A program made the translations under genes and the position numbers. A DNA stretch of 35,138 nucleotides, from contig NZAC01000041.1 in the NCBI GenBank assembly GCA_002686085.1, positions 1-35,138 of the forward strand, read 5' to 3'. Below, piece by piece: positions 11,296 to 15,303 of the stretch. How positions within the stretch are numbered: position 1 is the stretch's first letter; each line of letters starts with the position of its first letter. The notes under the pieces were generated by a model. It had not been told where the DNA came from. It did no database searches and saw nothing but the letters and a program-made list of their open reading frames with translations. This DNA comes from Roseibacillus sp. (GTDB taxonomy: Bacteria > Verrucomicrobiota > Verrucomicrobiia > Verrucomicrobiales > Akkermansiaceae).

Positions 11296-12903
11296 TCACC
11301 CGTTGGCCTGACCGGGCTTGCTATTGCCAAAGAGAGAGCTCACCCCGGTAACCTTCGTGATCACGAGTTGCCCGTCTTTCTCTCCACTATTCCCCGTCAG
11401 CTGAATCGGAGTCCCTACGTGATAGGCCAGGTTGAAGCGATGGAAGTCGCCGAAGCCAACCTCGATTCGAACCGGCGCCTTCCCCTCTATATCAATGTAG
11501 AAGACCTTGGCCTCATCCAGATTATCCGACATGCGAAAACGCCCCTGTGCCGTAATCGTGCCCTGACCCCGCTTCACCCAGCTCTCAAAGGGACGCTCGC
11601 GAAATTCTTCAAAGGGGCTTCCGTCAAGACCCGGTAATGGGGAAGAAGCCTGTGAGTAGGATTCTGCATCCACCCCGAACTTCTGCATCAGGGCCAGGTG
11701 AAGTCGCCCAAGCTCCTGATTCTTGGAGTATCTCAGATAGCGCCCCGTCTTCAGCATGCCTCCCCCCTTCCCTGCCAGAACGATGGGGATACGCTGAGCG
11801 GTGTGATTATCACTGTGCCCCATTCCAGATCCGAAAAGCACCACACACCGATCCAGCAAACTGCCTTCGCCGTCCCGGTAACTTTTCAATCGAGTGAGCA
11901 GGGAATCAAATTTTTCCATGTGCCAGAGACTGATCTTAAGAAGAGCATCAATGTTGGATCGACTAAAGTTCCGGAAGAAGTGAGACAGGTAATGGTGCTG
12001 TCGATTAATCCCAAGAAAGTCAAAGATGAGACGGCTGTTGCTGTTACCCAGCATGTAGCTGATGCAACGTGTGGAATCCGTCCACAAAGCCATCGCGATA
12101 ACGTCCAGCATTGACTCTACCTGGTCGTCGAGGGAGAAGGGAGTGTCCGGACGCTGAAGACTGGAAAAGTCCACGACTCCTTTCGAGGCAGAGGACATCT
12201 TCTGAAGGCGTTGCTCGGTTTCCCTGAGGACCGTGAAATACTCATCCAGGGTTTCGCTGTCCTCCTTACCCGCCTTTCGCTCCAACGCTTTCGCATCTGC
12301 CCGGACCCGGTCGAGGAGGCTGCCCATCTCCTCTCGGCGATTGGGGTCCTGAGAGGGATTCCGGAAGAGGCGATCGAAGACAAGCTGAGGATCGCTCTCC
12401 CTTGGTAGCGGTTTTCCTTTCCGGTCGTAGGATATATAGCTGCACCCAATCTGATTTACAAAGATTCCCTCGGTGGTGAGCTCGAGCGAGCGATGCGTCG
12501 TTTCATTTCCGATCTTGTCCGCAATAATCTGGTCCACAGAAGCAGACTTCCGGTTGTTATGATGCCCGGAAAGGAATCGACGAGTCGAGTTACTGTGAGA
12601 GGAAAACCCGAAGTCCCCCATGTTATCCAGGATCAGGAGGTCATCCCGATGCCGGGAAAACGGCTTCATCAAAGGAGACATCCGGAAATCATTTTCCGTG
12701 CCTCCATTGATATTCCAAGAGGGCGGATGCACCCCGTTGGGCTTGAAGAGGGTGACAAAGCGAACAGGGGAAGCACTCCCTTCCTCTCCACGAACTCCCG
12801 GTGCCCCATGAGACTTCATGATGTTCAGCAGCGGCAAAGGCACAAGAGCTCCTGCCGCTCCTCTAAGGAACGTTCGCCTCCCAATCTTCCACGAAGTGCT
12901 CAT
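11296..12903 (-). CDS. Tat-exported DUF1552-family protein
   Basis: A 535-residue protein of the DUF1552 family, found mainly in Planctomycetota and Verrucomicrobiota and of unknown biochemical function. It begins with a twin-arginine signal (Arg9-Arg10 in GRRTFLRGAAGALVPLPLL), so it is exported folded. The family-like body includes RFVTLFKPNGVHPPSWN, LLILDNMGDFGFSSHSNS, FLSGHHNNRKSASVDQIIA and VVLFGSGMGHSDNHTAQRIPIVLAGKGGG. The last two resemble the alkaline-phosphatase-like fold of the related DUF1501 sulfatase-like proteins. It has a C-terminal extension of about 80 residues (from GTITAQGRF). Its first bases overlap the last bases of the DUF1592-family gene by 4 nt, so the two are translationally coupled and probably act together outside the cytoplasm. 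Confidence 0.9.
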   Translation of the reverse strand: MSTSWKIGRRTFLRGAAGALVPLPLLNIMKSHGAPGVRGEEGSASPVRFVTLFKPNGVHPPSWNINGGTENDFRMSPLMKPFSRHRDDLLILDNMGDFGFSSHSNSTRRFLSGHHNNRKSASVDQIIADKIGNETTHRSLELTTEGIFVNQIGCSYISYDRKGKPLPRESDPQLVFDRLFRNPSQDPNRREEMGSLLDRVRADAKALERKAGKEDSETLDEYFTVLRETEQRLQKMSSASKGVVDFSSLQRPDTPFSLDDQVESMLDVIAMALWTDSTRCISYMLGNSNSRLIFDFLGINRQHHYLSHFFRNFSRSNIDALLKISLWHMEKFDSLLTRLKSYRDGEGSLLDRCVVLFGSGMGHSDNHTAQRIPIVLAGKGGGMLKTGRYLRYSKNQELGRLHLALMQKFGVDAESYSQASSPLPGLDGSPFEEFRERPFESWVKRGQGTITAQGRFRMSDNLDEAKVFYIDIEGKAPVRIEVGFGDFHRFNLAYHVGTPIQLTGNSGEKDGQLVITKVTGVSSLFGNSKPGQANG

Positions 12904-14855
12904 TGCTTTTCCTGATTCTCGATAATCGTCTCCCGGAAGGAGGAACTCATTACGATTTCAGTGAATAGATCTTTCCACGTTCCGTTGTGCTCAACAATCT
13001 TTTCCGTGATCTGATCGATCACGGGATAGTCGTTCCTCGTCATTTTTCTGCAGAGCGCGTAGGAAAGCGTGCGCTCCACCGCGTTCCGAACAATTCGGCC
13101 ACGCTGCGAGTTCATAAAGATCGTTTTCAGTCCGGCATAATCCGTAAAGGTCTCTCCACTGGGTAATTTTCCTGATGTATCGATCACGCTCCCCGATGCA
13201 CTCCCCTTTTTCCCATCCCGCTTGATAAAACGCCCATTAGTATCGTAGCCATCAAGAGAAAACCCGATGGGATCAATTTTTTCGTGACAACGAGCGCAGC
13301 TGACATCGCTACGATGTCTCTCAAATCGCTCACGGAAAGTGAGCTTCTCCCCACGCGGGGCGGGCTTAATCGGAGGGATATCAGCGGGAGGCTCTCCCAG
13401 CCGCTCCCCAAGCACCCTGCGAAGAAGCCATGTCCCGCGCTGGATCGGACCCCGGTTCATCGTAAGAATGCCGGGCATGGTGAGTATCCCTCCCCTCCAG
13501 CTGGCTTTTTCCAGAGTGAACCGCTCGAAGGGCGTCGTCTGCCGCTCAATGCCCTTGGGAGTCGGATGAAGCTTCATCCGGCCGCGATCTTCTCCATAAA
13601 AGCCTGACACCCCGGTGTTAATGAAGGTCGTTTTTGAATCAATCAACTCCATTACCGGGCGGTTCTCCGTGAAGAGATAATTCAAAAACAGAACAGGCTG
13701 TGTCCGGAGAGAATGGTGCGCGATGGGGTTGGTAATCAGTGCGTCGAGATTCGCAATGCCCAGCCATTGCACCCCAAAACTTTCGGAAAGACTACGCGCA
13801 GAAGGAGACTTAAGCATCCTCTCCACCTGATCCCGCAGAGCTTCTGAACTGGACAGCTCACCATTCTGCGCCAAGAGCATAAGCTCGTCATCTGGCCGGT
13901 CTTCCCAGAGGAAGTAGGAAAGTCGCTCTGCCAGTTCGTAGCTGTCGACGGGTTGCCGGCCCCCGGCGTTTACCGGCATCAACATCCCTCGGTAGAGAAA
14001 CTCGGGCGATAGCAGGACCGCCTTAAGCTCAAACTTAAGGATCGCCACGAGGCTCCTTCCAGAATGTCCCCTGATAGCTTCGAGCGCTTCCTCAAGACGC
14101 GAATCGGGCACATGGCGGCGAAAAGCACGGGGAAGGAAATAGCGCACCAGAGCTTCTGCCTGCTTTTCAGAAAAGTCCTCCAAATTCCATTCATCCGGAA
14201 ATTCTCCTCCAATCAAACCCTTGAGCCCTGCTCGTTGTTTGGGCGCAAACAGCTTCTCGAGAGCGGCCTCGGTGAGAAACGCATATTGCTCCCACAGAGC
14301 GGACGAAAGCGGGGCTCCGTGGGTATCGTTAACGAATCCGCTGTCACCTGGTGGATCTTTCGGAAGCAGCTTGAGAACCAGCGATTGCTCTCCGGCCACC
14401 GTCTGCTGCGCCTCGGCAACCACAACCTCAAGATCAAAACCGAACAACGACCTCAAGCTGTTCCGATACTCCGGACCCGAAAGCCGCCTCGGCTTGAACA
14501 CCCCAGGACGAGATTCTACCGGTGCTGAAAGCCTGAGATCGTACCACTCCGCGATTTTCTTTTTTGCTTCGGGCGTCAACTGAGGGTGATCCTCAGGCGG
14601 CATCTCCCCGGCCTCCACGACTTCTACAACCGTTTCCCAGAGCTCAAACCGAGCATCGGCATCGGCATCGGTCCTGATCTCGGTGAAGTCAACTCTGCCC
14701 TTTACTGTCTCGCCTCCGTGACATTTGAGACACGAGGCCTCAAGTATCGGACGAATATCCTCTTCGAATGCCACCTCCGCGCTCATTCGCGAAGCACCGA
14801 GGGCCATGAGGCACGCGGTAACCCGCACAACGGAGGAGCCCACGCTTCTGGCCAT
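12900..14855 (-). CDS. DUF1587/1595/1592/1588/1585 multidomain c-type cytochrome-like protein
   Basis: A 651-residue exported protein of the planctomycete-cytochrome-associated type. After a signal peptide (residues 1-26) comes a haem c motif CLKCH at 42-46 within the PSCyt1-like DIRPILEASCLKCHGG. The usual DUF1587, DUF1595, DUF1592, DUF1588 and DUF1585 segments follow (PRRLSGPEYRNSLRSLFG; YFLPRAFRRHVPD; YELAERLSYFLWEDRPDD; the RGGILTMPGIL region; RNAVERTLSYALC). A second CxxCH (CARCH) lies near 519-523 in DUF1588. Two covalently bound haems are therefore plausible, in an exported redox role of unknown substrate. The ATG at 14855 is preferred over an in-frame TTG 21 nt upstream because the signal peptide starts there. 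It overlaps the DUF1552 gene and lies 79 nt downstream of the selenoprotein candidate. Confidence 0.9.
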   Translation of the reverse strand: MARSVGSSVVRVTACLMALGASRMSAEVAFEEDIRPILEASCLKCHGGETVKGRVDFTEIRTDADADARFELWETVVEVVEAGEMPPEDHPQLTPEAKKKIAEWYDLRLSAPVESRPGVFKPRRLSGPEYRNSLRSLFGFDLEVVVAEAQQTVAGEQSLVLKLLPKDPPGDSGFVNDTHGAPLSSALWEQYAFLTEAALEKLFAPKQRAGLKGLIGGEFPDEWNLEDFSEKQAEALVRYFLPRAFRRHVPDSRLEEALEAIRGHSGRSLVAILKFELKAVLLSPEFLYRGMLMPVNAGGRQPVDSYELAERLSYFLWEDRPDDELMLLAQNGELSSSEALRDQVERMLKSPSARSLSESFGVQWLGIANLDALITNPIAHHSLRTQPVLFLNYLFTENRPVMELIDSKTTFINTGVSGFYGEDRGRMKLHPTPKGIERQTTPFERFTLEKASWRGGILTMPGILTMNRGPIQRGTWLLRRVLGERLGEPPADIPPIKPAPRGEKLTFRERFERHRSDVSCARCHEKIDPIGFSLDGYDTNGRFIKRDGKKGSASGSVIDTSGKLPSGETFTDYAGLKTIFMNSQRGRIVRNAVERTLSYALCRKMTRNDYPVIDQITEKIVEHNGTWKDLFTEIVMSSSFRETIIENQEKQ

Positions 14856-14934
14856 GAATCTAATATTAAGACTCAAGGTCGGCAGCGCCCCTCTCCCAAG
14901 ATCTTTCCATGTCGCGTATCCTGCTGCAAAAATA

Positions 14935-15303
14935 CTATTTCACCTTGAGCAACTTACTGATCACTTCCAACACTTTGGCTTTGCCATAATTGTGGCCCTC
15001 AACTGCGGCTACCAGCTTTCCATCCTTATCTCTCGCCACGATGCCGTGACTCGCCAACTTCGCGCTCTTGATATCTTCCTTGCTATTCCCTTCTCCAACC
15101 TTGCGGGCGGAAATCTTAACGTTCTTGCCATGCTGTTTGCTCTGGTCATTCACGATGACCGTAATTTTATCACAAAGCACTCATCCGTCGAAATAGTAGT
15201 AGATCAGGGAAGGTTTTTTCTCCTCGGCCAGAGCCGGAGCTATAAAGCCCAGCGGTAGAAGAAAAACGAGCAGTGTTACTCTGAATAAATTCATTGAAGC
15301 CAT
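14935..15303 (-). CDS. Candidate exported thioredoxin-like selenoprotein (in-frame TGA as Sec)
   Basis: Read with the TGA at 15183-15181 as selenocysteine, this is a 122-residue secreted protein. Residues 1-26 form a signal peptide (MASMNLFRVTLLVFLLPLGF... ending APALA, with Met4 an alternative start). A beta strand SLIYYYFDG follows, then Sec41-Val-Leu-Cys44, a helix, a strand NVKISARKV, a strand pair GIVARD/KLVAAVEGH, and a final helix KAKVLEVISKLLK. That order matches a minimal thioredoxin-like fold, with UxxC exactly after the first strand; His replaces the usual cis-proline neighbourhood (ASHGIVARD). No other stop interrupts the frame. Neither half makes sense alone: the first has a signal and nothing else, the second has no signal and no first strand. 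A hairpin fitting a bacterial SECIS follows the TGA. The alternative is a pseudogene with a nonsense mutation. The selABCD machinery is not in this window. Confidence 0.75.
15144..15160 (-). promoter_or_regulatory. Putative bacterial SECIS hairpin
   Basis: In mRNA sense the element reads GGUCAU-CGUGA-AUGACC: a perfect 6-bp stem with a 5-nt loop having G at loop position 2. The stem starts after a 20-nt spacer downstream of the UGA, so 26 nt separate the UGA from the loop. Known bacterial SECIS elements have the loop about 16-37 nt after the UGA, a short upper stem and a G among the first two loop bases; this one meets all three. A possible lower stem (UUUGU with GCAAA) lies outside it. Confidence 0.7.

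Follow-up and report, generated by a model that had tools for sequence, protein, structure and literature searches.

A putative family of exported thioredoxin-fold UxxC selenoproteins, nearly confined to Verrucomicrobiota

Several UxxC thioredoxin-like families figure among the 119 prokaryotic selenoprotein families of a 2026 review, in which Verrucomicrobiota are not mentioned (PMC13188914). Sec thioredoxins (PF00085, UxxC) and exported thioredoxins share the thioredoxin fold and a helix 1 that opens with UxxC or CxxC, and SaoT (NF040730) and TsoX (NF045809) are small thioredoxin-like UxxC selenoproteins. The hypothetical protein GOS_C (NF045500, Omp28_seleno), also thioredoxin-like with UxxC, is a selenoprotein described from marine metagenomes (PMC2398784); of the known families it comes closest by description. 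The gene described here resembles them all in these respects. It lies on a contig of a marine member of Verrucomicrobiota, Roseibacillus sp. (NZAC01000041.1, assembly GCA_002686085.1), whose 35,138 nucleotides were analysed as a whole and are referred to as the window, and its product is very probably an exported selenocysteine (Sec)-containing thioredoxin-fold protein.

On the minus strand an ATG at 15303 opens a frame of 40 sense codons, a TGA (15183-15181, the only in-frame TGA in 15303-14935) and 81 further codons that end at a TAG at 14937-14935 (MASMNLFRVTLLVFLLPLGFIAPALAEEKKPSLIYYYFDG-TGA-VLCDKITVIVND...KLLKVK-TAG), just as the original prediction had laid it out. That prediction also placed the start at 15303. 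An ATG is indeed present there, but ATG 15294 is more likely to be the conserved start, because a TGA directly precedes the aligned ATG in one relative (L040) and the codon aligned to 15303 is not ATG in two others (L036 and L037). Residue numbers nevertheless follow the 15303 start (122 aa, Sec41) throughout.

14935..15294, minus strand: predicted selenoprotein gene; preferred start ATG 15294 (119 aa, Sec38), stop TAG 14937-14935
15226..15294, minus strand: predicted N-terminal signal peptide (MNLFRVTLLVFLLPLGFIAPALA)
15172..15183, minus strand: UxxC active-site motif, from TGA (Sec41, 15183-15181) to TGT (Cys44, 15174-15172)

The signal peptide, likewise proposed at the outset, is made plausible by its AxA-type end and by a hydrophobic N-terminus common to the aligned relatives. 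Further upstream, a stretch beginning MKRGLAHFAA (window 15342-15303, minus strand) is kept within the genus in the frame of the gene and could serve as a leader or have a regulatory role; a start within it was considered and rejected, since L040 has stops between this stretch and the gene. In 25 of 28 sequences the Gly just ahead of the TGA (window 15186-15184) is encoded by GGA, with a codon homozygosity of 0.79 against 0.30 expected, a bias which suggests that the base 5' of the UGA is constrained.

The same protein is encoded across the same TGA in 13 of the 58 genomes searched, the source genome included, and at 28 loci of the GTDB collection; 27 of these belong to Verrucomicrobiota, and the sole match labelled outside the phylum is a Lentisphaerales metagenome-assembled genome (L060). 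In a search across the order, 47 of 387 genomes gave a match, the copies comprising 43 with one TGA, four with Cys and no stop (all from one genus) and one fragment outside the site. Recurrence on this scale goes far beyond chance. The TGA occupies the same codon in all 46 distinct Sec sequences, in which Cys44 is invariant, and is retained even where protein identity falls to about 41-50%; the protein is conserved on both flanks. Relatives carry either TGA or, in a distant clade, Cys at this position and no unrelated residues; the original prediction had proposed to look for both forms. Since the same TGA recurs across many independent assemblies, the sequencing error or isolated nonsense mutation that had been raised as alternatives are excluded.

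The four Cys homologues (L095-L098) are lipoprotein-like and have CFLC in place of UxxC. They are detected by a profile built from Sec sequences only (E 5e-11 to 5e-4, per 10,000 sequences), and in the tree a single fully supported branch splits the Sec from the Cys forms. Like the Sec family, this sister family carries the HG motif and the two invariant His residues. Cys forms of the close family were absent from the scan of the GTDB collection, whose search patterns would have caught them.

These comparisons bear on the alternative that the TGA is an ordinary stop and the locus a broken gene or two short reading frames (40 and 81 codons) read separately. Standard table-11 ORF calling does return just an 81-aa piece (15180-14935) from the GTG directly after the TGA, as had been foreseen. 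Yet the same TGA with conserved flanks is found in dozens of genomes, many members have CCG or CCC after the TGA and hence no start codon there, the Cys homologues form one continuous protein, and the predicted fold requires strand 1, which is encoded before the TGA. We consider an ordinary stop very improbable.

Beyond the order, a phylum-wide sample of 388 genomes gave no match other than the source genome, a plasmid search gave no match, and a class sample of 384 genomes returned members together with ordinary exported thioredoxins at marginal scores. Four such distant class-level matches (L119, L121, L122 and L125) were rejected as members, being ordinary exported thioredoxins with IPT. 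The family is nearly confined to Verrucomicrobiota. Most dS values are saturated, and dN/dS carries little weight.

A short way downstream of the TGA lies a candidate for a further element expected of a bacterial selenoprotein gene.

15144..15160, minus strand: predicted upper hairpin of a bacterial SECIS, GGUCAU-CGUGA-AUGACC; loop 26 nt past the UGA

Its 5-nt loop (CGUGA), in which the second position is G and the third U, closes on a 6-bp stem, and the 54-nt minimum free energy (MFE) is -12.3 kcal/mol. The hairpin agrees with the bSECIS consensus of a loop of 3-9 nt with G within the first two positions, a stem of at least 4 bp, a distance of 16-37 nt from the UGA and an MFE at or below -7.5 kcal/mol (PMC13188914). 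Taken alone, the folding energy of the sequence after the UGA is unremarkable (z -1.5), and the evidence for the SECIS was accordingly drawn from synonymous-site conservation and covariation in place of this weak score. Synonymous sites in codons +8 to +11 are frozen: among 32 representatives less than 90% identical, none of 20,000 synonymous shuffles was as extreme, and these codons rank first in synonymous conservation over the whole stretch. Stem cells are paired in 96.5% of cases across 38 distinct rows, and another version of the loop, AGUUG/AGUUA, retains the GU. In three sequences the stem shows a compensatory double change from U-A to C-G, in addition to a G-U step; since these changes also alter amino acids, protein conservation does not explain them, although all three come from one related group and may represent a single event. 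A rival pairing is predicted in the L051 group, and several relatives have an MFE that does not reach the -7.5 kcal/mol threshold.

The genome that holds the window (3.95 Mb, 96% complete) encodes the complete machinery for which the original prediction had proposed to look: SelA (2.6e-125), SelB (281 bits against a cut-off of 242, with SelB beta-barrel and winged-helix domains), a SelD with an in-frame UGA of its own (CAGUASK), and a tRNA-Sec with a UCA anticodon (67.3 bits, gathering score 47). Gene and machinery also travel together. SelA is present in 33 of the 58 relatives, and all 13 carriers of the gene are among those 33, while the gene was found in none of the 25 genomes that lack selA (Fisher p 2.4e-4 over 58 genomes, with kinship ignored). 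Among 38 further genomes with a match to the gene, 36 have some selA match, 34 of them above the cut-off; all 20 near-complete genomes have selA, and the exceptions are incomplete assemblies. That the TGA is read as another residue, such as Trp in a reassigned code, is scarcely credible: all that speaks for it is the use of TGA as a sense codon in this gene, and against it stand the complete Sec machinery, the Cys in homologues, the SECIS-type hairpin and the position of UxxC in a thioredoxin fold.

AlphaFold2 models from 43 aligned sequences support the thioredoxin-like fold that had been suspected from the sequence. All five models agree (pLDDT 82-88; best 88, best pTM 0.74) on the predicted order b-a-b-a-b-b-a, in which UxxC sits at the N-terminal end of helix 1, and the closest PDB matches of the model are thioredoxins (Z 12.7, rmsd 1.8 over 87 residues; Foldseek E 4.5e-5). 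Seven positions are invariant in all 46 Sec and four Cys sequences: Tyr36, Sec/Cys41, Cys44, His86, Gly87, Gly95 and His104. Three of them were placed by alignment with E. coli thioredoxin.

15043..15048, minus strand: invariant His86-Gly87, aligned to Ile75-cisPro76 in E. coli thioredoxin
14992..14994, minus strand: invariant His104; just after the residue aligned to Gly92 of E. coli thioredoxin

Going by the alignment, both sites fall on the face next to the thioredoxin active site where substrate binds, and His104 comes after the last strand. The cis-Pro that precedes strand 3 (E. coli Pro76) is absent, with Gly87 in 50 of 50 sequences. This proline has been described as likely to take part in substrate binding and perhaps to guard against the binding of metal (PMC2757866).

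The genomic neighbourhood lends no guilt by association, and the gene stands alone: neighbours vary from clade to clade and there is no conserved operon. In the window a DUF1592/PSCyt cytochrome gene (12900-14876) and a DUF1552 gene (11296-12903), both on the minus strand, follow the selenoprotein gene. The window, L046 and L051-type loci adjoin planctomycete-type cytochrome genes (DUF1592/DUF1552 or DUF1549/DUF1553/DUF1501), and comparable pairs of a cytochrome gene with DUF1501 or DUF1552 occur on its flanks in some further clades. An operon-based function built on these neighbours was rejected and the adjacency is treated as incidental, because most clades do not have it and PSCyt1 domains number 20-66 per genome; with 44 matches in the source genome, chance adjacency is plausible.

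What, then, does the protein do? The loss of cis-Pro, together with two invariant His residues, is the reason for keeping a metal function in play as the main alternative, in which the main job would be not thiol/disulfide chemistry but to bind or hand over a soft metal ion (e.g. Cu or Hg) through Sec41, Cys44, His86 and His104, after the manner of a thioredoxin-fold metal chaperone. The Gly that replaces cis-Pro is preceded by His, and His104 is invariant, in every Sec and Cys sequence, and periplasmic export is compatible with such a role. On the other hand, the literature (PMC13188914) regards known thioredoxin-fold proteins with a Sec-containing UxxC as redox proteins, and no metal-transport genes recur near the loci examined. 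A metal chaperone is an unlikely reading, and the function is probably redox rather than metal.

The best reading makes the protein a selenol/thiol oxidoreductase that works in the periplasm and represents a new family. At the level of sequence the case consists of the conserved UGA, the Sec/Cys pairing, the machinery, the SECIS signature, the predicted fold and the phyletic linkage, and on this basis insertion of Sec in vivo, export, redox chemistry and the parts played by the His residues can be envisaged as follows. SelB-type machinery would read the UGA as Sec, aided by the conserved hairpin just downstream, and the signal peptide would direct the chain to the periplasm. The mature domain of ~93 residues would fold as a thioredoxin in which Sec41-x-x-Cys44 opens helix 1. 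The selenolate would attack an oxidised substrate such as a disulfide or a peroxide, Cys44 would resolve the intermediate as a selenenylsulfide, and a periplasmic donor would re-reduce it. By alignment, His86, which precedes the site of the lost cis-Pro (Gly87), and His104 would sit on the substrate face beside the active site, where they probably tune the selenol or bind substrate. Without the cis-Pro, it is less certain that the protein acts as an ordinary thioredoxin. A bolder and rather doubtful version of the proposal is a Sec-dependent family, in which the replacement of cis-Pro by His-Gly would have created a periplasmic selenolate-thiolate-bis-His site whose metal or peroxide chemistry needs selenium, so that Cys is barred in close homologues.

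If the reading as a selenoprotein holds, one family would be added to the ~119 prokaryotic families of the 2026 review (PMC13188914), and its gene is one that ordinary gene callers would miss or truncate. According to the authors of deep-Sep, every selenoprotein known so far seems to have Cys homologues, and selenoproteins without them may be lost to the filter that these authors use (PMC12013277). A family without Cys among its close homologues is a case that such pipelines may lose. The family also makes it testable what selenium does beyond sulphur in a thioredoxin fold that lacks cis-Pro.

The comparison with described families accords with the original impression that this is not a recognised selenoprotein family: no named selenoprotein family was matched in NCBIfam 20.0, and no scanned member reaches a Pfam or NCBIfam cut-off. 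Thioredoxins of PF00085 are the best PDB neighbours, with a weak profile similarity (12.8 bits for the window protein, gathering score 23.5). Unlike them the new family lacks WCGPC, has Gly preceded by His for cis-Pro and an extra invariant His104, and carries Sec in all close members; the exported class-level thioredoxins L119, L121 and L122, for comparison, carry KCIPCK and IPT. Sco copper chaperones have a CxxxC plus a His metal site, whereas the spacing in the new family is UxxC, which sets it apart from them. The models of SaoT and TsoX give best scores of 16.8 bits (cut-off 65) and 16.3 bits (cut-off 52), and with DF (NF049942, cut-off 70) included the maximum is still 16.8. ArsF (NF040494) matches the Cys sister protein L016 weakly (18.1 bits, below the cut-off of 60) and none of the Sec members scanned. 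Identity with GOS_C was rejected: NF045500 is a 377-position Omp28-type model, unlike the new family, it has no match in the source genome, and the members of the new family all fall short of its threshold (>200 bits). The class Trx-like 3 of the GOS survey has 183 Cys homologues, again unlike the new family (PMC2398784); single metagenomic reads of the family may sit unnamed in the GOS catch-all classes Trx-like 1 or 3. Judging from its sequence, the family, unnamed in the catalogues searched, belongs among the thioredoxin-fold UxxC selenoproteins.
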